DNA of 64,000 nt from Mycteria americana (lineage: Eukaryota; Chordata; Aves; Ciconiiformes; Ciconiidae). Shown one piece after another: positions 7,448 to 56,580 of the stretch. The stretch is taken from contig NC_134368.1 in NCBI RefSeq assembly GCF_035582795.1, positions 36,826,501 through 36,890,500 of the forward strand, read 5' to 3'. Within the stretch, counting starts at the first letter, position 1, and each line of letters starts with the position of its first letter. The translations under genes and the position numbers were made by a program. The notes beneath the pieces are model-generated. The model saw only the letters and a list, made by a program, of their open reading frames with translations, did no database searches and was not told where the DNA came from.

Positions 7448-8199
7448 AACTGATTCCAAAAGGACTAAATAGGTGCCTACCTTCTAACACACCTACTTTA
7501 ATGACCGTGGACGCTGGGGAATAAGCACAACTTCTCTGCCAGGGAAGAGCTAGAGACTGATTCAGAAAGCCAGAGGACTACCATTTAAATATCATACTAC
7601 ACGGAAACCAAGCTAAAAGTAGAGGTTCTAAAACCCATCTGAAAGTTTAAGAGAGTACTAAAGAGATTTCAGTCCTAAGGAGTTAAAAACTTAACTTTCC
7701 AAAATATATTCATTCCTGTTGACATCTGAGAAAACACTGTTTTTCTGATTGTCAATAACATCAAAGACTAGCATAGTTTAGTACTACAGAGGCAGCAATT
7801 ATAGATGTTCATGTAATATATACAGTAGCCTTTGTTTTGTAAGAGTACAAAATACTCCACCAATACAGTGATACAACTATTTCTGACTTTAGGAAGCTCT
7901 TCTGCTTCACATATGCTAAGAAACCACTTTCTGCTTTACTATCCCTCTGCTTCAGCAAAATACCACCAACTGAATCCTACAGCACACATACTTAACAGGT
8001 GTCTTTATCTTCAGCAAAACCTAAACGTTTTCAAGGTCGAGCTTGAAGATTAAACACAGAGGCCTCCAAACAAAGTTTCATGCCCGTTACTGACGCTTAC
8101 AGGTTTTTACAAGGCAGTGACTGAAATGCGCGCTTTGACGCACAGCTGCGCCTTCGGGACAGGCTTTGATACACCTCATACACCTGCATGGGGTACCTT

Positions 8200-9170
8200 T
8201 GCGATCCCCGCTCGAGCTCAGCACCCGCTCCGCTCCCTCTGGACTTCGGCCGCCCTCCCCGCTCGGCCTCTCCGACGAGCCTGGGGCGTTGCTCCCCGCG
8301 GGGAAGGGGCAGTTTTCTCCCGCCCACGCGGGGCCGGGCTCTGACCTCCGTCCCCCCGGCATACAGCCGCCCGCCTTGCAAGCGGGACCCCGAGCACAGC
8401 CCAGCTCTTTGCTTCTTGCAGGCGCCGGAAACAGCCCTCGTGCAAGCCATGGCGTCTGCTCTTGCAGGTGCTCTTTGCCAGCCCCGGCGCACCCCTGGGG
8501 GAAGGGAACTCCAGCCTAGAGACGCGCAGCACCTCTCAGGACACGCACAGGCGGAAAGGGCGGGGGGGACGGACCCCACAGGAGAGAGGGGCGCGCACAC
8601 CCCACACCCCCCACACCCCCCCGGCTTCAGGGGGCGCGCACTCACGCGGGGCGCCGCGGGCTGCCGGCCGCCTCCTCGTCGCTCGCCGCCGCCGCCGCCG
8701 CCTCCTCCCCGATGTCGGGCAGGGCGATGAGCAGGGCCTTGGCGCCCGCCCGCCCGCCGGGCTCCTTGTCCGCCGCGGCGGCTGCCGGGCGCGGGGGGCG
8801 GCCGCCCGCTCCCCCCGGCGGCACCGCCCTGCCCGGGGCGCAGCCCCCGCCGCACGGGGGGCGCGGGCTGGGGGGCGGCGGGGCGCGGGGGCCGGGCGCG
8901 GCGGGGGCGCGGCGCAGCCTGGCGAGGCGGGCGCCCGGGTCCAGCGCCGCCGCCGTCGTGGCAGCGGGGCGGGAGCCCCTTCCCGCCCCCGCAGGCCCGG
9001 GCGGGCGCGGCCGGCGGCTCTCCCGGCCGGGGCTGCCCGGCCCGGCGGGCGTTGCTAGGCTAAACAAACGGCGCCGAGGCACGCACCGCCCTCGGCGGGG
9101 GGCACGGAGCCTGCGGGCCGCCGCCAGCCTACGCGCCTGGGAGGCACATGGAAGCGTAGGGCAGTAACCT
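8200..9170. promoter_or_regulatory. FAM149A: CpG island, probable FAM149A promoter and first exon
   Basis: This is a very GC-rich, CpG-dense block in otherwise AT-rich DNA, densest at about 8,640-9,130. It contains the minus-strand exon ending in a GTGAGT donor at 8645. It has no obvious TATA box, as is common for island promoters. The transcription start is not determined; it should lie at or right of 8,959. All the long plus-strand frames here are by-products of low stop-codon density in GC-rich sequence. Confidence 0.8.
8646..8959 (-). CDS. FAM149A: FAM149A coding exon 1 (start codon uncertain)
   Basis: FAM149A is a poorly characterised conserved vertebrate protein and the gene next to TLR3 in mammals. 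In this minus-strand exon the frame reads ALDPGARLARL at the left and LIALPDIGEE near the end. From memory, the mammalian protein begins with Met-Lys-Ala-Ala-Val-Leu-Asp-Leu-Gly and has an LPDIGEE motif just before the end of its N-terminal low-complexity region, so both ends align. The exon closes after a 2-base partial codon at 8646 with donor GTGAGT. The codon that aligns with the mammalian Met is ACG (8959-8957), preceded by GCC. The frame stays open upstream to an ATG at 9310, which would add 117 residues, so the start may be non-AUG, upstream, or in another exon. The gene name rests on motif and synteny, not on an alignment I could run. Confidence 0.6.
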
Positions 9171-10740
9171 GTTGCAGCCTGTGAGCGGAGGAAATAAAGC
9201 CTGGCATTTTCCCTCCGATTAAAATCCCACCTGACACGAAGGGGCAGAAACCAGCTCCATCCACCAGGGCCGCAGGGCCCCGCTTCGCACCCTTCCTCTG
9301 TGCGGTGCACGCATGTGTGCGCAGAAGGGGTTTAACAGAAACGAGGAGCGAGAGGGACCCACTCCCGTACACCTTTTTATAGCGCATCAGGCGACGGCAG
9401 AAGGGAGCCGTGAGAAGCAACAGCCCCCCTGCAAAGATGCTACCAACAATCCCAGGCAGCCTGGAGAGCAGCGGAGGGCGTCAGGATCAAAGATCTTTCT
9501 CTCTTTTGCTACAACTACCAGGCAGCTGGAGGCACACCAACCAGCTCTGTAACATCGGGTTGTCTGTCTGGATGGAGAGAAGAGGGGTCATGCCAGCAGC
9601 ACTTTGGGGACACTGTAATGGCGGGTATTACGGACAGGGCAAACATTGTGTCAACTCAGAACATGGCAGGTGGCATGGCCCTTGGCAGCATCTGAAAGAA
9701 CAGCACAGGCTGAAAGATAGTACAGTTCCTTTATACGTACGAGCCCAGGATCATACACCAAGCAACTAGTTGCGCTATCAACTTCAAGCTGGCAGCTGGT
9801 AGTAGATGACAACCAAGGACACAAAGTGGGGAATTTTATCCCTGCCTTGTCTTCCTAGCACATCAAGGAGTGCAATGAGCTGGTAGGGTGGGGCACACAG
9901 GACACCAAGTACAGGACTGAGATTTGAAATTGGGATATTCTTGGCCTTTTTTCTTACAAACTGAAATAAGTATGTTCTGACCAAACCTTATGGAATAGGC
10001 CCACATAAACCTAACAGCAGCACAATATGCATTTATTTCTCGTGATGCCAAAAACCCTTCATTGAGCCACAGTGGAAGTAGCACAACTGAGCACGTTGGT
10101 GTGTAGTATATTTATCTCAGCTGCAGCCCCAAAGCAACCCTCCATGAAGACCTGGAATAGAACCTGTTATGAACATCACTGTCTAACTTGTTCATTACTC
10201 CCTGTCATTCAAGAACCACAGAAAAAGTCAGGTTGCACCCCAAATCTACGGACTTGAGCATTCTGCCTCACCCAAGTCCTTTAGATATTCTGCTTTCAAT
10301 ACAGATGATTCCCCTTTAGTCCTAGGTAATATCTTTGACACTACAAGTTTGGAACTATTTTTCATTTATTTGGTATCCAACTCCTCAGCAAATCAGCATA
10401 ATATAGTCTGATGCTGCCCACTGCAAAGAAACTACCCAGCTCAGATATAGACTGTTAATGCTGAAAGCACTTACTACTCTTCACCATGGCAAGCCCATTT
10501 ATTTACTCTCAATAATAATGTCAAACGAACGTACAGGAGCAGAGCAGAAGCAGGTAACTTTCAGACAAACAGGGAACATTTAGATGAAAATTTTGTCAAG
10601 TATAATTGATGATTACCATTGGCCCTGCGCTTATTGCTTTTGTGCCTTTTTTTTTTAACATTAGTCTAATTCTCATTGTGAGCCTTTATAATGTCTTTCT
10701 GCTGTAAATTATTTTAAACTGAATGTAGGTACTAAAATAA

Positions 10741-13532: not shown

Positions 13533-16500
13533 CTGAAACAAAAATAAGACAAAAATTCATGTTTTCTTTCATGTGGAGAGGAAAAATGACAGTTATTTTA
13601 ATAGCTCACATAATAGCACATTGCAAACTCAAGGACTGGACCCAAACATGGGTCTTAATTCTATGATATAAAATTGTCATTACTTATGTTAAATTAGTTA
13701 CCTTCTAACTAAAGAAAAAAATCATCCTCTAAAAATATAACCTAAATCTACTGTCTTGATATAGCCTTGTTTAGCAAAGTTCCTTTCTTTTCAAGATCAC
13801 TACATAAGAAAGGTGAAAAGACTCATTTAAAGACAAAAGTCATCTTTGGATGCTAGTGATCTCACCCATTATTGCTCTTTTTCAAACATGTAATTTTAAG
13901 GAAAGCAATCTGCACAGGTAACAGCTTGACTTTTTGAAAAAAATATATTGACTGAGAGATTCAAATTTCCACTAGTGTACATGTGGAGCAGTTAACTTTA
14001 TTAACTTCGGAATAATTCCGAAGTTACGATATATTAAGTACATATATTAAAGTAGAATTTGCCTGGTATTTTTTATTAAATGGTATTTTTTATTAAATTA
14101 CACAGCAAAAAAGATTACCTTGTTAAAAAAACATCTGTTAAGAAATTTTCTCCCTTACATATAAAATTTTATATCCTACTCACTTTTTGCACCAGGGATC
14201 CTGTAAGAGGTGTTCAGTCACAACAAAAATAATCTTCCTGCTCATTTTTATACTGTTAATTGTGGCTTCAAATTCAGATATGCCCGCTTCAAAGTCCCGT
14301 TCTTCTAAACAAAACCTAATTTGAAAGTGGTCATTTTTTTCCAGAGACATGAAATTCTTAGACACCCAATTCTTGTCCCGTCTTGCATGAATAACATAAG
14401 CATCATAATCAAACTCTTCCTGTTGTCTGTCGAGTTCTTTAAAACCAAGTATTCGATTTACTGAAATATTCCAGTAGAAAGCTATTCTCCACCCTTCAAA
14501 ATGGATGATAAGAACAATAAAAATTACTAGCATCACAATAGTGGTAGTGATCACAAACAGAAGTTTAAATGGAGCACTGTCTTTGCAGGCTGAGCTATCA
14601 AAATGCAACACCAGACTACCGTGATATTTAGGTGGGGTGTTGCAAATGTACTGGGACCTCAATCCAGGTATATATGCTCGGGTCACATTAAGCCAATCGG
14701 CAAACCAAGCAATGCTTTCACAGGTGCAATCAAATGGATTGGAATCCATCTCTAGTATTCTCAGGCTCTTGAAAGCTGGGCCAAACACTTTTTCTTCAAC
14801 TGAGGTTATCAGATTTTTTTGAAGGTTCAATGAATTCAGAGAGGCTTGGTCATCAAACAGAGTTGCTGGAAGCAAATTCAAATTATTTGATCCTAAATCC
14901 AAGTTTTTTAATTGAAACAGACCCTTGAAAACCTGAACTGGAATCTCATCAAGCCCATTTGATTTTAAATTAAGAATACGCAAGTTGGGAAGATCTTTTA
15001 AAAAAAGAACAGGGCCACCTGGATTTGCATGTTTCCAAAGTCGGGCTAAATTATTGTGCTGCAAATCCAGAATGTCAAGTTTGTGAAGTCCATCAAACAA
15101 GTCTTCTTTTATGTTTGCTATGTTGTTATTACTGATGTCCAGGACAGTCAGATTTTGTAGAGGATGAAAAGGCGAAGGAAAAACTGCTAGATTACTGCAA
15201 CCTACCTTCCTCAGCATCAGTTTTCTAAGGCTAGGGACAAAAATGAATGATTCACTTCGCAAAGTCAAGTTTTTATTATAGGAAAGATAAATATCTTGTA
15301 TATTATTGAGACCTGTAAACTCATGACCTGTTAGCTCTTGACTAATTTCATTGAGACCAAGATCGAGAATTTTCAGGTGTCCCAAGGAGGAAAATGCCCC
15401 ACTTTCTATTGTAGAGATTCTTGTTTTTGTGAGGTTGAGAACCTGCAAACTGGAATTAGCAAGTGATGAAAATGTTTTATTAGTTATTCTTTGTAAGTTT
15501 ATGTTGCAGTTACAGAGACTCAGGTATTTCAGGTTGCTCAGACCTGTGAACATATTAGCAGTAATTCCTGGGAAATTGTTATTATCCATTATAAGGTACT
15601 CCAGGTGGTATAACCAACGAAAGGAAAAATCTTCAATTTTCCCATTAAGTGAATTTATTAGATTCAGATGTTTGAGGCTGGATAATCCATAAAATAAACG
15701 TGAAGATACATGAATGTTGTTATGCTTCAGGTTTAAGTATTGTAAACTTGAAAGCCACTGAAATGAGTCATCTTCTGTCACAGACAGAGAATTTTGGGAA
15801 AGGTTTAAAACTGTAAGATTTGTTCCTTGCAGTCCCTGGAAAGTTGATTTGCCAATGTATGAAAGCTTCACATGGCTCAGTGAGAGGTTCTGAATCGCTG
15901 TGTTTGATAATTCTGTACAAAGTTGCTTTGTGAGATTTTCACCAAGTTCAACATTGTTCAGTGTGAGGCCAAAGAGATTTCCAATTGCATGTAAACACCC
16001 TACGTGAAACTGAAAAGAAAAAGAAAAAAAAAAAAAAGAGAGTTTTGACCTAAACAAGGAGATTATGTAAGAAAATAGCCCCATAAAGCCAAAATTTGGA
16101 AAGGTTTTCAAATGGGATTTTCAAGCCGAATATAACTCCTACACTCAGATTTTTCCACAGCCGAGTTCAGACAAACACTTCTTGAAGTTTATACTTCTTG
16201 TGGTAACAGTTCTAAAATTTGTAACTTGATTATCATAATTCTGAGTAGTACTCTTTTAGAAGAAGATAGAAAGTTGCTTAGTGAGATGCAAGTTAAGTAC
16301 AATTTTGTATCCAACTAGTAAAACTCTTTCACTAGAAGTATCTTAGAAATTGAGATAATATCTTTTTTCAGCTTTCTTTTATTGGTATCTGGTAGGGATA
16401 CCAATACACTAGTGCAAAACCAGATATACTGTAAAAAAGTTATTTAGGCCTTCAGACAGCCAAGAAGAAACCCAGTTTCTCTCTGTGAGCAGAAGCTACA

Positions 16501-19500
16501 CTCATGAAATGTGATAGTACACACTTGCTTCCACAATACAAATCAAAAGCCTCCATCATAGTGCTGGTCCCTCACTTTGATTCAGATCAGCTGAATGATT
16601 AAATACTCAATTTTTCAGAATTATTCAAATGCATAAGGCTGCTTTTCAGACAGCAGTACTGTAAAGTCAGAGCAGGTAAAACTAACATAAAGTAGCACCG
16701 CCCAAGAAAGGAGCAGTCCCATCTACTTATCCACACCCTGTACCCTTGTGCTAATATGGCCATACATGCAGTCACATGGTGAACCAGATAGGGAACCAGC
16801 CTAACCAAGCCAAAAAAAATCTGTAGAGTTTCTCCAGTGACCCAGGGTATGTCCTCATTAAAGCTTGTACCAGAAAGAGGGAGGGATGAAGTGGCCAAGG
16901 GAAAGAGGACAGTGGGATTGCCTCTCAGCAGTGGTACAAGCTTATGCCACTTCAAAATACTCTTGTAATTTCAATATATATGTTCTTTCCAGATCAATCA
17001 ACTGGGGAAAAAACCCAAGTAAATTCAATGCAAATTCAGTATTCATATGCTGAGGGTCAACCACTTTAGAACTGCAACACTTACCATCACTCTTCAAAGA
17101 ATCATACTGCAACACTGAGAAGCGGGTCAGAGAACAGTGAGGTAGGCGGCAGAGAAAACACCCACTTGATTTTTTAAAAGAGTGAGTATACTTTTCTGCA
17201 ATGATTCTTTCTCTGGGGTACCCCACAGGCACAAATGAACATTCTCTTTGATTAACTAGGAAGTGACCTAGATTGTATAACCAGCCTTGCATAATATTGC
17301 ACTTTTTCCCCCACTTAGAAAGTATGTCAGCTGTTCACCTTCAGCACATACAAAAGAAAATCCTGCATAGAAAATACCTGGTAAGGGTTCACAGAGCTAC
17401 TTGATCTAGGTCTTGCTTGGGACCTCTGATCTACATGGAACCAGCCCTTGCTGATTTCAGTGGGAGAAAAATAATTGTGTGTATACTACTGGAGGTCAGG
17501 TGTAATGCTGTATACAATAGAATGGTTTTATCTTTGACCTCAGTGGATCAATAATGTAATGTAAATGCCATACAATCATAAAGGACAAATCAGGATAGTT
17601 CCATTTCATACTTACACCTGTTGAATTTCTGTTGAAATGCTCCCTACCTCTTTCAGTGGATTTGATGACAAATCAAGACTATTCAATGAGGTGTTGCTAA
17701 GAAAACTGAAGTCTTCCTTGTTTAACTCAGTGATTTGGTTGCTATCCAACATGAGCTCACGAAGGTTCTTCAACTGTTGCTTCAATCCTAAGTTTGCTGA
17801 CTTCAAAAAATTATGAGATAGGTCCAAAATATTCAAGTTCTGGGGAGAAGATGCAAACAGAAAAGTGTAAAATTCTTTCTTTTTATATATTCTGTTTTAT
17901 ATAATACAAAACCATTTTGAGTCTAATTGATTAGAAATTAGTTGCAATACTACAATTAAACTAAATTTGTAATAGAGAAATGGCCGCTTTCAAGCTCCTG
18001 AAGGAAGAAGCCTTCTGTATCTTCCCCACCTGTAATTTTCATTGCGTTCATGGTCTTAACCTGCTAAAATATCTACTGCAAACCAAAGAATTACTTTATC
18101 TAAAACTCCTTAACTCACTGAAAGCCCTCCTGCTCCAGATAAAGTGATAAAAGCAAAAGCCTGCAGCTGGCTGCAGTTACAACTACTGCAGTATTAAACC
18201 TTGCATTCCACCCTCTTCACTGTGGTCCACCCCCATTAATGGAAGCGAGGAAGGGGAGTGCAGTAGCAGCCTACAAAGATCAGTGCTGTACAGCTTGTAA
18301 GACTCCAGCTCATGCCCAGGTGCTCAGACTCCTCCTGCACCTGCAGGGGAGGAGATGCTACCCTAAAGGTGACTCCACAGAATGTGCCTTGAGGTGCCCC
18401 AAGCCTGGCCTCCATCAGTAACAGGGCAGCAGCAAAGCGAGAAAGGCCAGAACTGCAGTTCCGTTCCCAGCACCGAAGCTGGCTGTACTCATTTGTGCTT
18501 AGTGGAGAGTCAGCAGTCCTACGATGCAAGCAAGTACATTTTATGTAACTGAACTGGAATACTGAGTTTAGCAGAAAAGTTCAGACTCATTCAAAACAGC
18601 ATGCACACTCATTAGAACATTTTACAACAATTAGTACCCACACATTGTCTCCATTTTCTTTTGTCTTTAGGCCCTTCCTTTTGCATGATTCCCTGCTTGG
18701 TGCAAAGACAATGGAATAGTCTTTTCCTGCCTCCTGTGCTGGTACCCCAACCTCATAGATGCTACAGAGAAGAACATTTAACCACGTGTAAACTACAAGG
18801 AAAAACAAAGAGTAAAAACCTTTTTACTCTACCTTTCTCAATCCTCAAAGTCCTGGGAGACACTACATTCAGCCTAAGCACTGGCCTTCATGGTCTGACT
18901 ACTTGTAATTACTTGACCTTGATAATTTAGGCTAGCTACCATTTTTAGACCCCAGGCAACTCCGATTCCACACCATGCACTTCGCCCTATACGTTGTCTG
19001 CTGCTGCTATCTCTCAGCACAAATCCTCTATGGAGAGGTGCCTCAATGGGATGCAACAGGGAAAAGGGGATGGAGAGCATTGACTCATGAGGATGGCTGA
19101 GACTCCAGTGTGCTCTAACACAAGAAGCCACTAGGCCTTTTCTTTAGAAAAACAATGAAGGAAGATTATATGCTGGGTATTTGCAGATACAAACAGCCAG
19201 CCATTCTGTACACACATAGGAAAATACAGTAAATTCCCCATTTGTACTTTACTTACATGAAAAGGTGCATTTCTAAAGCTTACCTCCAAGGTTTTGAAAG
19301 GATCATTTTTTATATCTATTCTGTTGTATCCTAGATTGAGCTCAGTCAGGTTGGTGCAGGAAGCAAAGACTCTGTCAGGGAGCTTATACAATTCATTGTG
19401 TTCTAACTTCAGAACCTGCAACAGGGGCACATTTTGGCACAATTCTGGTTGCAGTTTAGAGATGCTGTTGTAGCCTGCGTTCAAGTAAACCAGCTGGCTG

Positions 19501-19724
19501 TACTTGGTCAAATTTGCAGGACCTAGCTGTCTTAGCTGATTATGAGAAATGTCCAAACCCGTTATATTGTTTGGGAGATCAGAAGGAATTTGAGTCAGCT
19601 TTAGGTGACTGCAGTCAGCCATTTCATTTCGGATCTGACATTGCTTTCCAACTGATGCACACAGCAAGCAGGCAGACACCAGTCTGACAAATAAGCTGCT
19701 CCACCAAAGAATAGCACTTCCCAT
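13304..19724 (-). CDS. TLR3: Toll-like receptor 3 (complete coding region, 4 coding exons)
   Basis: TLR3 is an endosomal receptor for double-stranded RNA that signals through TRIF (TICAM1) to IRF3 and NF-kB. Joining 19724-19284, 17839-17648, 16009-14184 and 13532-13304 gives 2,688 bases, or 895 residues plus stop, the usual TLR3 size. In order: signal peptide (about 1-24), N-terminal cap and a long leucine-rich-repeat solenoid (to about 630), C-terminal cap (FDCTCESIAWF), transmembrane segment (about 694-713) and TIR domain (about 744-885). The dsRNA-contact residues known from mammals are kept: His40 (in ADCSH), the His in SHNQL and EHNEL, and His529/Asn531/Arg534 in LQHNNLAR. The BB loop has Ala786 (DFEAG) where other TLRs have Pro, as is typical for TLR3. 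Tyr749 and Tyr849, equivalent to human 759 and 858, are present. No frameshift or stop was seen. The protein looks functional. Confidence 0.97.
14001..14097. repeat. 12-bp palindrome and 17-bp tandem duplication in TLR3 intron 4
   Basis: TAACTTCGGAAT at 14002-14013 and its exact reverse complement at 14015-14026 flank one base. About 40 bases on, TGGTATTTTTTATTAAA at 14064-14080 is repeated exactly at 14081-14097. Both lie in the roughly 650-base intron between TLR3 exons 4 and 5. Confidence 0.85.
14184..16009 (-). CDS. TLR3: TLR3 coding exon 4 (most LRRs, TM, start of TIR)
   Basis: The exon is 1,826 bases with acceptor TTTTCAG just right of 16009 and donor GTGAGT from 14183. It begins FHVGCLHAIGNLFG, which follows the exon 3 end LKE with the phase-0 junction expected for TLR3. 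It encodes residues 212 to the split codon 820: the bulk of the leucine-rich repeats, the cysteine cap, the transmembrane helix and about half of the TIR domain. One repeat loop (LNLINSLNGKIEDFSF) is shorter than the human one I remember by about nine residues. Confidence 0.96.
16010..17647 (-). other. TLR3: TLR3 intron 3
   Basis: The intron runs from donor GTAGGG (from 17647) to acceptor CTTTTCAG with a long pyrimidine tract at about 16,011-16,040. Nothing gene-like lies inside. A 10-bp inverted repeat (TATTGGTATC, 16380-16389 and 16397-16406) lies in it. A second donor-like GTAAGT occurs a few codons further on, but using it would read past the conserved exon end into a stop. Confidence 0.85.
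17648..17839 (-). CDS. TLR3: TLR3 coding exon 3
   Basis: The exon is 192 bases (64 codons), phase 0 at both ends. The acceptor CTCCCCAG precedes AACTTGAATATTTTG (NLNIL, opening an LDLSHN repeat). The exon ends ...SSNPLKE with donor GTAGGG. The length and both boundaries match the TLR3 family, and the exon covers about two and a half leucine-rich repeats. Confidence 0.94.
17840..19283 (-). other. TLR3: TLR3 intron 2
   Basis: The intron runs from donor GTAAGC (from 19283) to acceptor CTCCCCAG. It contains a mildly GC-rich patch at 18,236-18,530 with overlapping short frames on both strands. I recognise no exon or repeat family in it. Confidence 0.85.
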
Positions 19725-19732
19725 CGTTTTGT
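19284..19732 (-). CDS. TLR3: TLR3 exon 2 (start codon, signal peptide, N-terminal LRRs)
   Basis: The acceptor TTTGCAG at 19739-19733 is followed by eight untranslated bases and ATG at 19724-19722. I choose this ATG over the upstream in-frame ATG at 19880 because the latter lies in intron 1, and the acceptor sits eight bases before MGSAILWW. The 147 codons give the signal peptide, a cysteine N-cap (QCQIRNEMADC) and the first repeats, ending at FKTLE with donor GTAAGC. All three N-terminal dsRNA-contact histidines are here. Confidence 0.95.
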
Positions 19733-22281
19733 CTGCAAAGGCAAAATGAACACAGTACAAATTACAATCATTTTGACACAACTTATATCTTAAACTGAAG
19801 GCTAAGCAAGCCAGGCTCAAAAAATGTAGTTTTATACTGAGCAAACACTCAGTATTTTTCACCCATAAAGTACCATTCATTTCTGCAGAAAAGGTATGTG
19901 TAAATCTCTCTAAATTAAGATTTTTTTCTTTAAAAACAATAGTATTGTCTTATGTAAAAAGTTACATTCAAAAAGCTACCAACCCTTTATCTATCATCAA
20001 TGCAAGTTTTCAACCATTTTCCCTTTTCTGATTAATTTTGCATTGCTTTAACATGCATAAAATACAATAAATATGACAAATTATACACAGACCCCTCTGT
20101 TAATCACCGAGCTCAGACCTTTACCACACTGATCAATATTTATACACAGGCCCCTCAATGTTAATCACTATGCTCTGAGCTTAACTGCACTCAAAATATT
20201 TAGTTATATGCGGTAAGAATGCCTAATATACCACTTCTTTATTTTACACTTCTTGCCAGTTTTTGTTTTACAAGCCAGCCACACAAAATTCTAACCGCCT
20301 TTCCACCTCACAGCAGAAGAAGGAATACCAGGCTATAGAAAGGTTGTGAGAGAATGAAAGAGTTAACGTCTCAAACATCGCGGCAAGGCGAGCCGTGGCT
20401 TGCGTGGCGGCGGCAGGGGTGGGTTAGCACTGGACATGGAGAGCGTGTCGGAGGACGCGCAGTTCTGGGTTCTGCTGTACCTCACATAACACCTTGCCAT
20501 ATAGGGCCAGAGGTCACACAGAGGTTCTCTGAGGAAGGGACTTACGACCACCCCACCCACCCCTTTCACCCCTGAAGCTTTGAGCATCTCCACAATCTCC
20601 ATATACACGTATCTGTATGGCCTTCTGCCAACAAACTTGGAACCTACCTGCCACCCTCAATTTACCAATGAGTTAAGTCTCTGCATGACGGGCTCCCAGG
20701 TAGAGAAGACAATCTGTGCCCCACTACAGAACAGGCTATAGAAGGGAATTTAACCTTACTAGACTTAACAGGAATCTAGAAGAGCTTCTCAAAAGACTTA
20801 ACTCCCAGGAATATGAGCTTTCTTAGTTTTGCAGCTCACATTTTACTTTGCTTGGAACCTGTGTTTAATTAACGTGATCTAGCTTTGAGCGCATTAGATT
20901 ATCGCTCAATAGCAAACAATGAAACAAGAAATTAAACCAGCACATCTGTACAGAAAAAGAAAAAGCCTTCGGAACTGATGTTATTTAAAGAGAAGAGTTT
21001 TCACTACCATCACAAAACACTCTGAGGAACTGACACTGCAACCTGCAGCCAAACAGGAGTTTAGCAGGTCAGACCCCAGCAGAGTTTGGCTCCGTAGGTG
21101 ACCTGCCTTTTCAGAGGGCACGCATTAGGACTGCTCCAGTGACAAAAAGCCATGTTACAGTGGCCAGGGGGGAACCCTGTGAGTGCCTCTGTGAGAGCAA
21201 CCTGGCCATCTAGGGGAGAGACACAAGTAAAATCCAACGGGAGTGGAGATACAAGCAAGGGAAAGAGGGACCTAAAGCATTGCAAAGGTGTACACAAAGG
21301 ACTGCAAAAGGCGATTCAAAATAAACCTTAATGAAAAAACAGTTCCCTGCTGGGCACTGCATGTGGGCCTGACCCACCTCCTGCAGCTCACACAGTCTGG
21401 CTCTCCACTCACCTGCCGCTGGCAAACAGGGAAGGGGCAGAGACAGCAAAGAACTGAACCTGATAGTCCTGCAGACAGCCTGACCTGCTGCAGCTGCTGC
21501 TGCACACAGCACCCGCATCCTTGTAGCTGAGGAAAATAAAGGACCACTTGTCCTGCCTCATTCCTCTGCACCCCAGCTGCTGGAAGAGCTAAGAAAAACA
21601 GAGGGGGAGCTTGTCTGTTAAAAAAACTTTACCTCTGGCCTGCATCCTTCTCAGGGTTTGTTTTTGGGAGATCAGATAGCTGCCAGGCTCCTCGGTAGTT
21701 GTTGCCAGCTCATCTTTAAGTTTGAAAGGCACAAAAAATGTACTGCACAAACACAAACCAAGCTCTTTGGCTGACTTCCAGTGAGGCCTGAAGGGCTGCC
21801 TTTTTCTGCTTTTTTCATTGCAGGAAGTCTGGAGTCAGCTTTAGGTGGGTTATGCTTCGGTTGGGGAGCCGGTGAAGAAAGCACACACCCGTTATCAGAC
21901 TTAAGGGACAGTGTAACAGAATAATATTTAACAGACAAAAGAAAGAACTACAGTTTTAATATTATGAGCAAGAACTTTAGAAAACTGGAGAATTTAGCTG
22001 GGGAGCCTCCAGCATCTCCCAGGGAGGGGCATTCCCACTTCACCTACATTGCCTTTCCTTTTTTTAAAACACAAAAATACCTCCTGCCGGCTGGGGACAT
22101 CACATCCAGGCCCGAGCACCAAAGCACGCTCATGAAGCAAATGGCAGCGGCGCCGACTTGCCAACTTGCAAGTTAAGAGAAATCCAAGAGCACGGAACTC
22201 GCCCAAACTCCTGCGCAGTACTTTGGCTTTGTACCGCCGGTATCGGCATTTCTTACTAAGGGGAGAACGGCATCCACTTAC
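19733..22281 (-). other. TLR3: Probable TLR3 intron 1
   Basis: This lies between a GTAAGT donor in the CpG island (22281-22276) and the exon 2 acceptor. It holds a diverged tandem duplication at 20,081-20,200 and a GC-rich patch at 20,363-20,660 with unusual coding-like frames. The rest shows no recognised feature. The intron extent depends on the exon 1 call. Confidence 0.5.
20081..20200. repeat. Two diverged 60-bp tandem units
   Basis: TATACACAG-A/G-CCCCTC...GTTAATCAC...GCTC...AATATT occurs at 20,081-20,139 and again at 20,140-20,200, with substitutions and a small indel. It is an old local duplication inside TLR3 intron 1. Confidence 0.8.
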
Positions 22282-46476: not shown

Positions 46477-49284
46477 GTACCTTTTGTATCTCTCCTATTA
46501 CTGCTCACACTAGGTAGCAGTTACTAGCAAAGGCAAGAAAAGTAATCTGGAAGTCTAGGCAAACAGTCCATTGCTTTCTAAATGTGTAAGTAAATACAGT
46601 CTACAGATTTTATCTGTAATTATAACACATCACTGCATCCTTCCTTTCTGTTATGAAACTTACACAGAATATTATTTAATTGCAATGTAAAGATTTTTAA
46701 TCAAGCACAAACACTTTTAAGTATGAACACCAAATTTAGTCTCTCACTTGTTGATTCTATTGGCTCCTGAAATCCTGTGGGTATAAGGCCTTTCAGAGGG
46801 TACAGTGCCATGCTAGCAAAAAAACTTTGTCACAGTGCAATACAATCAGTCATTGCTCTTTAGGTGAGTCACTAATTGTGGTATGACAAGGTCAAGCTGA
46901 AAGTAAGACATGATATATTTGAGGGCAATCATCCTTTTCGTCCAAATGCTGCTAAAAGATCAAGCAGGACAGAACACAAGAGACTTGTCAGTTAAAATAG
47001 AAGATGCCCAAATGCAGCTTTCTATGGAAGCTATATGACTGCAAATGTAAAGAATCTCAAAGTCTACATTACCCAATTCAGAAAGGATTCTTTTAATCTT
47101 ATTTGGTATCAACAAAACCAAAAAAGCTTCAGAGAAAGACAAAACAGAGCCTACTTTCATACAAAGCAAATGGTACCACAAGAAAAATAAGAAAATGCGC
47201 TGCTTTGAGAAGGAAAGACACCTTTAAAAGATGGCATAGATTTCTAAGTTGCCTCAAAGCAGTTTAAAAGCTGCCCTCTGCACCTTAGGCTTCATCCTAG
47301 CCACAGTAAAAAGGTAAAAGCTTCTGCATTTTTGTGCTGGGGCAGGAAGAAGGGGTATTTGTTGCAAGTCATTGATTGTTATTTAGGAACAGATTAAGGC
47401 AGCATTTGGGCATCTCCAGCACTGCACATTTACCTCACTTCTGAACTGTTCACTGAGACAGGACTGCTGGTGGCAGCAATATCTCCTTTTCATGAGCTCC
47501 TCTTTGCTGTGGTTCCAATTGAGTCATTCGCAGACTGCTATCTTCCTAACAGGCAAGGGTAGACCCTCAACAGCTGGCTCACAGCTTTCTACCTGACTCA
47601 GTGAAACCCGTAAGTCTATAAGGAAGGCAACAGATTGTTCACTCTCCTCCTTATCAGATATAAAACTCTGGATGAGGAAAGCAATCTGTTCCCATAAGAA
47701 AATTTCTCAGTTAAACAAAACCATTGCATATCTTCCTACTGATTGCTGTATCATGAACTGTATCTGCAGCCACTAAAGTTGCCTGAGTAGATATGAGTGT
47801 AGGTGTACTCACAGGCCTACTGCATGAGCAAAATTACCATAGCAATTACAGCTCCCAGAAGTACTACCGTAAGGCATTTAAAGATAAACCTGGTTTTGGT
47901 GGAACAGAAATTTAGCAGTGCATGCCAATATCACAGCAGTCCAGAGTGTACAACACCAGGCAGAATCAAGCTTAGCACCTCACAGGACACTGGAATCCTT
48001 CAATAAACTGGGTCAGTACCTGCAATTCAGAATCTAGATCTACAAACCCAGCATAGCTGAGAGAAGTCTTCAAAATAGTACTGTTAAGACAAGAACACTG
48101 AAACTTATTTCTTAAAAATCAGTGATTGTGACAGTAGACAGATCACATCTTTACCTGTTGCTGCAGCATACTTTTGTAATTATGTCTAAAGGAATTCTAA
48201 ATAGCCATGAAAAATAACCTAATGTAAAACAATATTATCTTTTAAGGTAACTGTTATAACAGCATACGCAGTATCTTTCAAAACTAATAAATTCATACAA
48301 TTATGAATTGCAGCTTTCAGCATAAAGATACTTTGTGTAAAGAGGATTTAGGTGTTAAAGTACCACACTTACTTGTCAGAAGTCCCCTTCTCTTCATTTC
48401 AACTTTTGCCCACCACCTCTTTCCTCTACAGCAAACAAATTTGGACGTTAATCAGTCACCTTTGCCCTGATTGTGAATATCCCAAGTATAACAGTATGCT
48501 TGGCACAATGGGCAATATTTGGAATGAAAGTAGCTTCATACCAATCAAGTTAAATTATAACCCAGACTAACCTCAATCCAAATTCTAAAAAGACCACCAG
48601 CATTAGACAGAACAAAGTCAGGGATTCCTAAACTGGGAATTACAGCCAGCCATAGTACACCAGTAGAGCATTCCAGGCACCACAAGGACTTGCAGCTTCA
48701 GAGAATCAGCTTGCAAAAGCCTAACTGCTCAAGTTCATCCTCCTGGTTCCATCTGGATATGGCATAAAGGCAACAGCAAACAGAAATCCCTGCTGAGTTG
48801 AAGAGACTGGAAACAGGTAGGTGCTGAGAGGGGATGCAAGATGGCTGGGCAATGTAGAGCTTCTGCCTCTGCTGGGCAGTAATAGAGAAAGACGGAAAGA
48901 TGGGAAGATAAATGACAAATCAAAGTGTAGTAGTCCTAAAACCAGCCATTCTAAAGCAGGGAGTCAGAAGAGAATAGTCAGAGTAGAAGCTAAAGCCTGA
49001 GGTGGGCTACAGTAGTTTGCTGTGAACTTGTTTTAAAGAGGGGCTCAAGTGGGTGGAAGGCTCCAGGAAAAGCTGCCTCGGTCTAAGAGGCAGCTAAGAA
49101 AAGCAGCACTGAAAAAGCCCATAGAGGATAAGACAACATGGGATGTTAACTGTTGCTAAGGTTGTTGCTTACTTTACTTCTCCCTGTAAATAAACCTAAA
49201 ATGTGTGAAAGGTAGGTGGGAAGTTAACTACCCCTTAGTAAGAAGGTCAAGCACAGAAGTTCAAGTCATCCCTCCTGCAGCTTA
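46477..49284. other. Intergenic DNA, no gene recognised
   Basis: AT-rich, becoming somewhat more balanced toward 49 kb. Only short frames without recognisable features. Confidence 0.6.
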
Positions 49285-52200
49285 TGCCACCATTGCAGGC
49301 ATCCACCACTCACAGGCAAGGGTCTATCTGCCACCCATCCCCACTTGCTGGAATGGCCTTTTTTCAAGATGACCCCCTCAAACATAAAGTACTACACTCA
49401 TCACACTCCTGCTGCCTACAGGCCCCCACAGCAAATGGAAGTTGGCCGAAGCCAGTGGTTGCTCCAGGACAAGGCTTTCTCCTTACCCCACAGAGCATGC
49501 CTTTTTGCATAGCTACAAGCCTGCCCAAACAGGCTTCACTTTGCTCATGATGCCATCACCACAGCAAGCTCTTGCCCCCATATCTCACCTCACAATCCCC
49601 TGCCACCCCTAGACAAGGCTCCTCCCAACACATCCCCAGCCCTTCCTTGAGGAGGCTACCCCCACCTGAGGGCTCCTTTTCATAGGACTACAAGCCTGCT
49701 CAAACAGAAAGCATTCAAGCTTGTGAACACTGTTGCTACCACACCATGGCCACAGCAAGTGGAAGCTATGCACAGGCATTCACACCTGGACAAGGACCTC
49801 CCCCAGTGGTTCCCTTCTCAGAAAAAACTTCAAACACAATTGGACATGAAGCACTTTGCTTGTGAACACCCCTGCCAGTGCATGCTCTGGATTCCCTCCT
49901 CTCCCTCAGATCTACTGTTCCTGGGGGAAGATTTGGCCCTTGACAGAGGGTCCCCTGTTGAGAGTATGAGCTCCCACAAACACCACTCCCTTTGCTCCTC
50001 AGTGCCAGCGCTGCCACACATTTCTGCCACTTATGTCACCTTCACAGAACACGGAAGCTACAAACAGGCTTCTGCCCCACCTAGGGTTGGCTACCCCCCA
50101 CCAAAGGACCACTTTTCACAAGATTACAAGCCTGCTCAAACATGAGTCACTTAGCTCATGGGTACGGACTCCCCACATAACAGGTCCTGTCTTGGACCCA
50201 GACATGAAGCACTCAGCTCATGAATATCATCACTGCACTCTCCTGCCACCCCCACCACCCTCACACCATATGGAAGCTATGCACATGCGTGTGTGAGTCC
50301 TACAGAAGGCTGCCGTCCCCCCAGCAAATCCCTTCGCACAAGACTGCAAGCCTGCCTGAATATCTCAGCCCGTGAACCCGTGCTGCCACAGCACAATTCA
50401 CCATGCCACCCTCAAAGGCATCTGCTCTTTCTGCACAAATCTCCATCCCCCCAATCCTTTTTCTGTGACTGCAAGCCCACCCAAATGCCTCTCACACAAG
50501 GCGCTTTGCTAGCAAACACCATCCCCACTGCACATTCCTGCCAGCTCTGCTGCCCTCACAGACCATGTAAACATCACACAGGCACCTGCCCCTCCTTGGG
50601 GAGGCTAATCTTTTCTGCAGCGGACACTTGCACAGTACAAGCCCATACAAACAGTGTTTAGTTCACAAACATGATTGCAGCCAAACTCCTGCTACTTCCA
50701 CAAATGGCAGCAGCACACAGGCTTCTGCCCCCGCCCCAGCTAAGGCTCCAACCCCTGCGACAGGTCCCTTCTGCTCATGTGCGGCCACCCAAACATGAGA
50801 CGTTCAGCCTGCAAATGCAACTGCATGCTCCTGCCGATCCCATCACCCTCACAGCACGTGGAAGCCACACAGGCATCTGCCATTCCTGGGCAAGGCTTTC
50901 CCCATCCCCTAAGCAGTTCCCGTCTTGGGAGACTAAGCCCTTCCAAACACCTCTCAAACTTGAGAAACTTCATTTGGAAACACCGTCATACCCTCTGCTC
51001 CCCCCCCCCCCCAATGGAAGGCATATAACAGTGTGCACCCTTCCTGTGCAAGCTTCCCCATCGTCCTCCAGTGGGTACTTTCTCCACAATCCCACAAGTC
51101 TGCTTCAAACAGGAGACACTCAGCCGCTGAACACTACTGCAGCCACACTCCTACTTTCCACAGCAACTGGAAACCGCTCCCAAGCACGTGCCACTCTTGG
51201 GCAAGGCTGCACTCCTCACTAGCACCTCACCTCACTTCTCACAAGAGTGCAAGCCTGCCCGAAAACTAGTGCCTTACCTTAAGAATACCACCACACACTC
51301 TTTCCACCTGTGACGCCCACACAAGCATCTGCCAGTCCTTACAAAGGATTCTCCCCCACTGCACGTCACTTTTCCCTAGACTGTAAGCTCCCCTCAAAGA
51401 CAAGGCATTTAAGCTCATAAAGGTCATTGCCACCACACTCTCCTCCTGTTCATGTCATCTTCACGGTATACAAAAGCTGCACACAGGCACTGTCACTCTC
51501 TGGGGAGGCTACGCCCTACCCAGGAGGGTTCCTTTTAGAAAGGCCATGAGCCCTTTAGCACAAAAGGGATTTAGACACTCCTGTCACCTCTACAGCAAAT
51601 GAACTGCATATTAGGCATCTGTTTCTGCCCAGCAAGGCACTGCTCCCCAACAAGTTCCTTTTCACTGGACTATACGCCCCACCAGACTTGAAGCACTTAA
51701 TTTAGAATGCCATTGCATAACCCTTCCACAGCACATGGAAGCTGTGCACAGGTGTGTGCCGCTGCTTGCAGAGATTTCCCCCACCTTCCCTTCTACAACC
51801 CCAACACTCTACAAGCTGCTGTCACTGCTGCACACTCCTGCCTCTTGTATCACCCTCACATACCCACCACTCCTCAGCAAGGCTCCGTTTCTCCATTCTC
51901 TTTTCATATTCCTATAACTCCACAGTTTACTTTAATTGTGAACACCATCACACTCTCCTGCCACCCCCACAACAAACTCAAGTCACACACAGCTCTCCAC
52001 CCCAGGTAACACCTTCCACCCTTAGGGTTCCCTTCTCCCATAACACATGCCCACACCAATGCCTCCCAACAGGAGGACCTTAGCTCAAGAACACAGGCCC
52101 TGCATCACACTGTTTCTGCCAGCACCACTCTCAAAGTTGATGATGACTCCTGGGAAAGGCTCCCGCTACCATAGGACCCTTTTTGCAAGGATCCTAGCTG

Positions 52201-53040
52201 CCAAGACACCTCCTAAACACAAGGCATGCTGTTTGTGAACACCACTCCCACTATCCCACCACCTTCACAGAACACAGGAGATGCCCACATGCATCTGACC
52301 CTCCGTAAGGAGGGCCTTCCCTCATACCACCCCTCACCTGGTCCGTTTCCAGAAGCCCAACTGCAGGCTTCACAAGCAGTCCTGCACCCTCCTGTCAGGG
52401 CTATAAACTCACACAAATGCAACTCCTCCGCTTCCCCAGCAAACAGAGGCAGAGCTCTAAGCACCCACCAAGCCTGGGCATAGCTCCCCTCCACAATATG
52501 TTCCCTTTTTGCATTATTACTAGACCTTCTGAAAGTACTTCATTCAGCCAGGCAAGACCCTCACACTCTCCCACCAACCAAGCAGGATCAGGCACAGGTG
52601 CCCACCCCACCCACCACTACCAAGGATAGCTTCTCATGCAGCCACAAGCCCACACCCATGTCTCCCAAGACAAGGGCCTTTACTTACACACACCACCCCT
52701 AAAACACACTCCTTCTGCCAGCACCACTGGCACCAGACTTAAAGTCACCTACCGCTTCTGTGAAGGCTCCTCATGCCTTGAGGCACTTTGCAGAAGGCCC
52801 TGTGCCACCCGGGCAGTGGCCATACACAAGGCACTTAGCTTACAAACAACATCATATGCTTCCAGCTCCATCTCACACCCTCACCCCCTCAACAAGCCTC
52901 CCTCCTAACAGAGTGCAACCCTCAGCAAAGCCATTGACAACAGTACTATGCTCAGCCCCAAACAGCAGTTCCACCACCTGCTCCCAGCTCCTTGCTTGTA
53001 ACAAGCACCTCTGTATCAGGCTTACCTCTCCCCCCTAAAT
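49285..53040. repeat. Degenerate C-rich tandem array, period about 150 bp
   Basis: About 3.75 kb of strongly C-rich, G-poor plus strand is built from roughly 25 diverged units of about 110-180 bases. A recurring order of words can be followed through the block: CTTAGCTCATGAACACC, then CACTCCTGCCACC, then ACAGCACATGGAAGCTAC, then ACACAGGCATCTGCC, then CTGGGCAAGGCT, then CTTTTCACAAGACTACAAGC and CTGCCCAAAC. Well-kept examples lie near 49,400-49,560, 49,690-49,800, 50,040-50,160, 50,800-50,920 and 51,700-51,790. A run of 13 C interrupts it at 51,000-51,012. The many long plus-strand frames here follow from base composition and are not called as genes. I do not recognise the family. Confidence 0.85.
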
Positions 53041-53250
53041 TTCTGAGGACCACAATACACAGACCCACGACTACCACCCTCGCAGGAGTAGGTATGCAAA
53101 CTACTGCTGCCTGCTCCACCATTATGTCAAAGGCTGCCCGCCCGGCCACTGGTGGGCTTCCTCATGGCCGCCTGACTCTCGAGGAGCTTTTGCTGCTATG
53201 TGATGTGGTTTTCATTGTGCAGGGCGTTTTATGTTTAGTATAGTATGGCA
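53041..53250 (+). other. GC-richer boundary segment with a short open frame
   Basis: Directly after the C-rich array, this segment contains several CpGs and a plus-strand frame that, from an ATG at 53,131, reads MSKAARPATGG then LTLEELLLLCDVVF. I cannot identify it. It sits where base composition changes from C-rich to T/G-rich, so a transcription start or first exon is possible, but nothing proves one. Confidence 0.25.
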
Positions 53251-53531
53251 GTAAAAGGCACGGGAGTCCGTGGTGTTTTTACTTAAAAATAGTTTGGGGT
53301 TTTTTGAGGGTTTTTTCTCTCCCTTCTTTTTTTTTGCATATGAAAAGGGAGACCAACTATTTTTGGTAAAAAATGTTTATGGTTGTTGGAGAGATGCTTC
53401 CTATAGCTACCTTAATGTTACAGCCCTATGACTGTAGCTCTGATCTAATTTAAAATAATAATTAAAAAACTGAACTGTTGACTTAAATGGACGGCTATTT
53501 TTCATGATTTTTTTTCACGTTTGGTCCCCAG

Positions 53532-53592
53532 ACTTAATGCCCAAATTGTTGAAGATATCGAGGAGCTGCTTGAACGCAAAATAGTTGTGTAG
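53532..53592 (+). other. Coding-like short frame after a splice acceptor
   Basis: The acceptor-like GGTCCCCAG at 53523-53531, preceded by a T-rich tract, is followed by an open stretch reading LNAQIVEDIEELLERKI and stopping at TAG (53,590-53,592). The peptide is amphipathic and charged in a helix-like pattern. It could be a terminal exon or chance. Not recognised. Confidence 0.2.
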
Positions 53593-56580
53593 GGCTTTTT
53601 TGTTGTTTCTTTCTATGTGTGCAGTTGCAAAATAATTGTAGCTACAAAAAGCACAAGAAGTGATGCAACTGTTTATTCTCAGCTTTTCTTGGGGTGCTAA
53701 TGATTAATTCTTAAAGTGTCATACCTCCCCCTTAAAAACATTTAATATAGGCTTGAGAACTTCAGAGTGGAATGAGTAGCTCCTTGATGACTGTTACTAA
53801 ACTGTTGTTTTACTAGGTATGATAATAGCTATAAGGAGCAGTCAGGAGAGACAGTAAGGGCTTGTTTTGGAGAGTACTTTATCTTACTTCATAGAAAGGT
53901 TCCAACACTGCTTTGCTTTACAGCTTGTTTCTTCTTGTCAACTTTTTGACTGTTTCTTTAGCACTCATGTGCCGAGGCTAAAACATTGGTTTCTGTTAGA
54001 AACCATTACTTTTCTAACCTTTTATCCTTTTCTTAAAAGTTTGAATCTAGTAGTGGTATGAGGGGCTAAGATTATGAGAAACTTAAATATGGAGAAAGGT
54101 AGCATACGGCTGTTGCTTGAGATAAAAGGGCTAAACCAATTTCTATACTCTAACTGTATCCTCTACTTCCTGCAAAATGAGGGAAGTGAATTTGTGGTAT
54201 CTTTAAGGAAAGGTAAACATTTTACATTAACTTTAAACTTAAAACATTTTAACTTTAAACATTTTAACCCCTAGCAAAATCGGATTTCTCAGTGAGAACT
54301 TAGTGGGTGTCGCTTCAGTGTTACAATAGAGAACCTGTTCTAGTCTACCATAAAGCAGAGCATTTAATGTGTTGATATTTGTTTCTTGTGGAAATGAGTT
54401 CAACTGTTTGCTGTAATATCCACCCAATAGTGCACGAGTTCCAGAGCACTAATAGCTATGAAAGCTGGCTTTCAAACCATAAAAACTCTGGACCTTGTGA
54501 CTGAATGGTGGGTGTGATTAAAAATGTAACTTTTGCTGTTGCTAAAAGTGAATTCTGTGGTGCGAATGAGGCAAGCTTGTTTCTGCCCAGTTTCCTCCTA
54601 TTTCCTGATTTTTAAAGTTATGCAGCTGTGTGATTTTACCTTGGTTTTTTTACCACACCTTCCTAATTATGTTGCTGATGAGCTTGAATAGAGTCTTGTT
54701 TTTCCTCAGAAGGAGAAAACCCTTTACAAATCAGAAGTTAAATGTATACCATATTAAGTTTTTAATTTTCTTGCCCTGGTAATTTGTCACCTACTTAACT
54801 TTCAAGTGCTTTATTGAAGTCAATCATTGAGAAATTTATTTCTGTGAGTTTTCATTTCAGTGCTGAATTGAATTAGTGATACAAGCTTTGAGCTGAGTTG
54901 AGAACATAGTCAAGATGTCTTTTTTTAAAAAAAGTGTGTCTTGTATGCTTGCTATTGAGGACAAGAACCGTGTCAGTATCTCTTCTAGACTTTTTCCAAG
55001 CCTTTTATTGCTGTCATAATATTGGGTTAAAGACAGCAGAGTCAAATAAAATACCACTAATTGGATGCTTACCAAAATACAGTAATCTAAATACTGAAGA
55101 AAAAACTATTGCACAGAAGAAGACTAGGCTTCACGCTAATAAGAATTTAGTACAGATAAAATCACTGTAATCTGTCAAGAAATAGTCAAAGTCGTAGTAG
55201 GAACTACAGTTGACTTGACCCTGGATAAAGCATCTGTAGACAGAGTTTAGTTTTGCTGCTATGAACTAGCTGTATATTCTGTGGCAAATGTGTTTTAAAA
55301 ACTATCTGATTATTGCTAGTAAAGTGCTCTTAGTGCCTGTGGCTATTGAGTAGTTGAGAGAATGTTTTATGCATTTGTGATGCTTACAACAAAAGTGAGG
55401 GAAAACTAGCAGAGCACTAACTCTTTTACCGTGGCAAGTTAGTGAAAATGTGAGCTATGCTTGGCTCATGAATTAAGGCAGAAGTTAGCTGTCCGGATTG
55501 ATCTCACCATAACTCCTCTGCCTAGGGCTGCTGAGCAAGGCACAAGAGTTGGGGTGGAGCCCATTTGTTATGAAGTAGCTAAATCCTAGTGGAGTGGAGA
55601 AGGAGCTGGAGTTATTTGCACAATCTTATGGGCACAAGGCTAGAGAGGAGTTTGCTTTTCATGGAAACTGTATCAGCTTTGGCAGAGGTACAGAACTGTT
55701 CTTGAATTTCTGGAGAAAGTCTTACACCTTTAATATTTTCAGTTTTGAGGAAACAGTGAACTGTTCCAGTGCAGATTTTGAAGTGTAGTGTGTGTAAAAA
55801 TATCAAGCCAATCAAATACCAACTAGATGCCAAGCTAAACTATAGTTACAACAGCATCTACTGCAAGAAATGTAAAAGTGACCTTTCAAAAACCAACTGA
55901 CAAGTGAAAAGCCTCTGTAGTAGCACTTAGAGTAGGTATTTTTAGACATTTCTAGGTGCATGTGGCTTAACTAAAGATTGTCTAACTCTTTGCTGGGAAT
56001 ACTGATTCAGTCATACTGCTGTAACAAAGTGAGTTAGCTGCCTGCTTTGCACTTCTTGGGGGTACAGTCTCGGAGTTACAATTGTCTTGGTACAATTCAC
56101 AGTGAGGACTGGAGACAGCAAGGATTAAAACTACACTGCTAAAATTCCAAATTAGATGTGATAGGATAAACAGTTACTGTTAAGTCTTGGAATCTGCCAT
56201 AGCATCTGCTGACAGGTAAAGATGGAGAAAAAAGCATACTTTGTAGTCCTGGTAGCCTCGGGTAGTCCATGTCGGTTTAATAATGTAACTAAATGTTACA
56301 AATAATTCTTTCTAATATGCAGCTTTCATTAATCCCTTGAACATCCCTTGTCTCCTAGGAACTTCCCATTTAAGACATTGTTGGGGAGCGAAGAAATGGA
56401 ACAATGTTCCTGCTCTTAAGTCAGGAAATACAGTTCTGGGCAAAAGAAATGCCAAGTGTCTTTTGTAGTAGAAAATGGTATTTCAACGCAACTGGCCACA
56501 AACCTCAGCTGACTTACTACCAAGGTGTTCTTAACTGGGATGAAGTGCTACAAGTAGTCTTATCTCCTGTTCCTGTAGTT

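Follow-up and report, generated by a model that had tools for sequence, protein, structure and literature searches.

A degenerate tandem array of 155-bp units on the 5′ side of TLR3 in Mycteria americana, probably a dead satellite

The TLR3 locus and its tandem array

The window analysed here is a 64-kb stretch of the Mycteria americana genome, and all positions are those of the window. The gene recognized in it is TLR3, whose exons lie on the minus strand between 14,180 and 19,949 and were identified as two ORFs (14,180-16,120 and 19,131-19,949) from Pfam families and matches to bird TLR3. The first ORF carries the Tlr3_TMD, TIR and LRR families, and its best match is a bird TLR3 (94% identity over 94% of the query, in a 225-member cluster named for Grus americana), in keeping with the avian host proposed in a preliminary description made from the sequence. 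The second ORF encodes the amino terminus of TLR3, and the tandem array that is the subject of this study lies about 29 kb from it, on the 5′ side of the gene. In vertebrates, SORBS2 and FAM149A adjoin TLR3. At 8,001-9,500 a GC-rich segment (0.73-0.74) contains long open frames, and those of them that were run against Pfam had no match; it resembles a CpG island and may be the promoter of the next gene downstream of TLR3, which by synteny would be FAM149A. Near 53 kb the GC skew, largely negative ahead of the array, becomes largely positive beyond it, and CpG observed/expected climbs to 0.41-0.65 at 53,001-53,600; together these changes could signal a plus-strand transcription unit that begins beside the end of the array.

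The array comprises 25 head-to-tail units of a C-rich monomer of about 155 bp, at 49,379-52,976 on the plus strand (that of the consensus as given here). The preliminary description had placed about 25 diverged units of some 150 bp at 49,285-53,040; the tandem organization is confirmed, and the boundaries prove right to within about 100 bp. Unit length varies from 62 to 175 bp (mean 144), and the mean identity is 0.70 to the consensus (0.69 when each unit is left out in turn) and 0.55 between pairs of units, which supports the proposal that this is an old, degenerate satellite. The unit nearest the consensus (0.79) is at 50,199-50,356 on the plus strand, and the four most diverged units (0.58-0.63) form the right edge of the array at 52,373-52,976, on the same strand. 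The left-most full unit is 0.72 identical to the consensus, so clear extra divergence is confined to the right edge. In the profile alignment partial pieces flank the 25 units at both ends; the left one (49,272-49,378, plus strand) combines a weak nhmmer match at 49,272-49,325 (E 0.18) with a partial unit aligned from 49,300.

Tandem Repeats Finder and a self dot-plot were among the checks proposed with the preliminary description. Tandem Repeats Finder listed nothing in the array region with default settings, and no array longer than 250 bp there with two relaxed settings. Comparison of the array with itself by blastn returned long same-strand matches (best E 1.6e-20, about 60% identity, up to 767 alignment columns). 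Since Tandem Repeats Finder gave nothing, units were delimited with a custom wraparound (circular) profile aligner with iterative re-estimation by EM. The autocorrelation of 7-mers has maxima at lags of 140-150, then near 290, 440-460 and 590-610. Profile scores for the region were 1020-1459 from eight 146-bp seeds, 1395-1799 from four seeds of 150-158 bp and 1787-1824 from five refined seeds, the top-scoring monomer being 155 bp long. Controls seeded at 150 bp were lower: the range was 540-627 for six dinucleotide shuffles, and a pair of 3.75-kb stretches from elsewhere in the window gave 498 and 516. The score of the real region is thus about two to three times that of any of the six shuffles. 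Sub-repeats within the monomer were not significant, with 15 of 100 shuffles reaching the observed score.

Searched with the profile (nhmmer), the whole window yielded 28 matches at E<=1, none of them on the minus strand. Of these, 25 had E<=2e-5 and lay inside 49,379-52,960; the others were an array-internal fragment (E 0.013) and the weak matches at 49,272 and 53,095 (E 0.22). As the units match the profile by construction, the informative point is that no strong match was found outside the array in the 64-kb window. The six ordered words by which the preliminary description had characterized each unit are idealized: as exact words they occur 0, 1, 1, 1, 2 and 0 times. With up to two mismatches they occur 3, 39, 6, 8, 21 and 5 times in the array, as against 3, 56, 4, 0, 67 and 0 times in positions 1-48,000, a stretch 13 times longer.

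Searches for genes and structured RNAs gave no sign that the block is a gene or transposon, at the level of Pfam and of Rfam gathering thresholds. Pfam was run on 76 of the 275 listed ORFs (10 and then 66, four of the 66 being from the array); the only convincing families were of the TLR3 type, and none fell in the array ORFs tested. Weak matches among the 66 to RNR_N (E 2.7e-4), Zn_ribbon_10 (E 0.0023) and Zn_Ribbon_Prim (E 0.0064) were not convincing. Rfam gave no match at gathering thresholds, and one match below threshold, at 53,249-53,359 (E 0.059), falls outside the array and was put down to chance. A literature search found no report of this locus among the papers it listed, a result that falls short of proving absence.

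Open reading frames from other sources that match the array

Large protein databases contain chance ORFs of degenerate satellites, derived from read assemblies, and such ORFs were used here in place of a DNA-level search. The probe was the 186-aa open frame at 50,662-51,219, which had two matches among 1971 candidates; a profile made from these two and the piece from the window had seven among 5956, the first two included. The seven relatives are anonymous ORFs (P0123-P0129, from Logan, JGI and ENA). Searches of viral contigs with P0123 and of prokaryote genome contigs with P0125 yielded no confirmed relative.

All seven ORFs match best, collinearly and over about 0.6 kb each, within 50,704-51,464, which is the place the probe came from, so that the matching of a single place is biased. 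P0123 aligns over its full length to 50,779-51,339 on the plus strand, with frameshifts. In frameshift-tolerant alignments the maximum nucleotide identity, an upper bound because the codon choice of the source DNA is unseen, is 0.944 for P0123 (5 frameshifts), 0.892 for P0124 (4), 0.921 for P0125 (7), 0.949 for P0126 (6), 0.916 for P0127 (5), 0.826 for P0128 (14) and 0.927 for P0129 (8). Scores at the best place were 323-589. At the next-best place in the array the seven reached identities of 0.743-0.784 and scores of 99-163, somewhat above eight residue-shuffled versions of P0123 and P0128 (0.721-0.771; 89-105), which fits the other units being distant copies.

Having a single best place and needing 4-14 frameshifts, the ORFs would most simply be chance open frames in a non-coding array that is common, unit by unit, to other genomes. 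The opposite idea, that the block descends from a repeat that coded for protein, draws on the plus-strand open frames of 145-186 aa and on the ORFs from other sources that match one of them. It is extremely improbable, given that a 155-bp unit shifts the frame at every repeat, that frameshifts are needed by seven of seven relatives, that two in-frame stops in the window lie opposite P0123, and that the array ORFs tested contain no convincing Pfam domain. The sources of the seven ORFs are most likely other birds, which would presumably carry the array beside TLR3, and the order of the units would have been fixed before these sources diverged from one another.

One relative departs from the common layout. 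Residues 1-165 of P0128 align to 50,777-51,270 and residues 160-228 to 52,163-52,353, the second part scoring 113 as against 40 at its next-best place. The split alignment points to an array part, 51,271-52,162 on the plus strand, that is apparently missing in the source of P0128. Unless there is an assembly error, that source seems to be without about 0.9 kb of the array, possibly through a lineage-specific deletion. Judging by the unit table, the break points fall at different positions of the monomer.

The relatives also bear on whether the array has sister loci in the genome, as a member of a dispersed satellite or of a transposon-borne repeat family. Transposons often carry short arrays in euchromatin (PMC12692304), and our view of the locus is that of the 64-kb window. 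We nevertheless regard a dispersed family as unlikely, in view of the lack of any strong match elsewhere in the 64-kb window and of the seven relatives that match one place and one unit order, even if this second point is weakened by the origin of the probe. On the evidence of the window, the array would be a single-locus repeat.

Base composition, CpG decay and function

The array had been described as C-rich and G-poor. The enrichment in C is clear (0.362, as against 0.189 in the flanks at 28-48 kb and 54-64 kb) and a strong depletion of G is not found (0.168 as against 0.196), so the strand asymmetry is mainly an excess of C. Frequencies of A and T are 0.255 and 0.215 in the array, and 0.313 and 0.303 in the flanks; the consensus has C 0.406, G 0.168, A 0.265 and T 0.161. 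GC skew stays between -0.345 and -0.403 in 1-kb windows from 49,501 to 53,000.

It had also been suggested that this composition bias has been kept, and the data do not support this. In resolved columns C was lost 340 times and gained 186 times, and T was gained 284 times and lost 134 times; gains and losses were balanced for G (171 and 163) and numbered 202 and 206 for A, all of these counts being indicative, as the consensus was estimated from the units themselves. The net loss of C, together with an array C content between those of the consensus and the flanks, indicates that the bias was inherited from the monomer and is now eroding. The strand asymmetry is thus the base composition of the monomer repeated in 25 units, rather than a maintained feature, a warning that old repeats can owe a strand-asymmetric composition to inheritance and not to maintenance.

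Where a column mixing C and T is followed by one mixing G and A, TG (118, 72.8 expected) and CA (190, 144.8 expected) are in excess, and CG (17, 62.2 expected) and TA (44, 89.2 expected) are in deficit. At each such site one of the two, the C or the G, has thus tended to disappear, a pattern that is the mark of decayed methylated CpG. Substitution rates in resolved columns (0.157 for C>T and 0.193 for G>A; Fisher p 0.076) give no clear sign of strand-biased damage. The conservation of columns is uneven (over-dispersion index 2.1), which is explainable by CpG columns and alignment error; constraint could also cause it.

The G-rich minus strand had been thought to favour quadruplexes if it is the non-template strand, and the near-nucleosomal period of the array had been remarked on. 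Neither idea was upheld. With loops of 1-12 nt the minus strand of the array has two quadruplex motifs; the mean over 200 shuffles is 2.48, and 144 of the shuffles contain at least two. With loops of 1-7 nt that strand has one motif (shuffle mean 0.79), and runs of three or more G number 108, compared with 103 in shuffles (SD 5.7). By these counts the G-rich strand is no richer in G4 motifs than shuffles. No 10-bp WW periodicity was detected in the array, 94 of 100 shuffles being at least as strong, and the nucleosome repeat of birds, about 200 bp, is longer than the monomer.

These results weigh on the possibility that the array has been kept for a function, for example as a non-coding RNA that carries the repeats, or as a block next to TLR3 with a regulatory or insulating role, its strand bias favouring R-loops. 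A stretch common to other genomes at maximum identities of up to 0.95 would agree with such a role, as would the over-dispersed conservation of columns. Against it are the net loss of C, the unremarkable quadruplex count, the missing 10-bp signal, the many indels and the probable 0.9-kb deletion in one relative, and the lack of an Rfam match at gathering level, and we consider a functional array very unlikely. There is likewise only a slight probability that the array has been kept since before modern birds diversified with C-rich units that act as a non-coding RNA or regulatory block, as opposed to having survived by chance. Constraint in a multi-bird alignment, if true, would give the locus greater importance, as an unannotated element beside an innate-immunity gene. 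We have no evidence of function for the array, and nothing found here calls for one.

Origin, age and comparison with known repeats

Our data make it highly likely that the array is a dead, once-methylated, single-locus satellite 5′ of TLR3 that is decaying neutrally as non-coding DNA. In the proposed sequence of events, a C-rich, CpG-containing 155-bp unit would have been amplified in tandem, presumably by unequal exchange, and homogenized for a time. Exchange between units would then have stopped. Pairwise identity is flat at lags of one to six units (0.55, 0.558, 0.546, 0.572, 0.576 and 0.572), which argues against recent local homogenization, and it drops to 0.46-0.50 at lags of 20-24, where the diverged right-edge units contribute. 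Neighbours are thus no more alike than other units, and the order of the units is common to the sources of seven other sequences. Since then the array may have decayed as DNA methylated in the germline, through point mutations, loss of CpG and deletions both small and large, a course consistent with the CpG-decay marks, the net loss of C and the frameshifts.

The neutral rate in birds is about 2e-9 per site per year. At this rate the mean K2P distance of 0.39 between units and consensus corresponds to about 200 million years on the assumption of a star-like start, and units that already differed at the start would make the array younger. On age we claim only that the array was amplified before the sampled sources split from one another. 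A frozen unit order common to several lineages makes the decay of a dead satellite directly measurable, in CpG loss, indel rate and edge divergence, and the array also bears on the age at which tandem structure escapes standard tools, as Tandem Repeats Finder misses it.

The best reading is that the array is an ordinary fossil repeat, an unnamed satellite of an already known kind. GC-rich minisatellites have a strand-asymmetric G/C content, and with euchromatic minisatellites and VNTRs the array shares this asymmetry and a local tandem organization outside heterochromatin. It differs from them in its unit of 155 bp, rather than 11-60 bp, and in showing no trace, among its units, of recent turnover in copy number. 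The resemblance to G-rich repeats that form R-loops or quadruplexes is limited to the strand-asymmetric G/C content over 3.6 kb, as G-run density and quadruplex motifs are at the level of shuffles; the G4 excess of a quadruplex-forming repeat and the WW periodicity of about 10 bp of a nucleosome-phasing satellite are both absent.

Satellite DNA has units longer than 60 bp, as defined in PMC12692304. The array consists of head-to-tail, same-strand units of one monomer, and is non-coding, 155 not being a multiple of three, with frameshifts against all seven relatives and in-frame stops. Concerted evolution is not seen: units are 0.55 alike within the array, as against at most 0.83-0.95 between sources (upper bounds). 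A likeness greater between sources than within the array indicates that homogenization has ceased, and with it that the satellite is dead, not active.

The closest comparison is with short euchromatic satellite arrays of the kind described in PMC5615363 and PMC12692304, whether 'seeds' of a satellite library or its low-copy remnants. Like them, the array is short and has non-coding units of more than 60 bp that are arranged in tandem and differ among themselves, and one of its edges is the more diverged. According to these sources (PMC5615363; also PMC12692304), the centres of arrays are homogenized better than their ends, and short arrays are homogenized poorly; the right-edge divergence seen here partly fits the first pattern, and the short length of the array fits the second. 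Compared with the arrays described there, no long homogeneous sister array is known here, as judged from the 64-kb window, the units are far more diverged (55% pairwise identity), and their order is common to other genomes.
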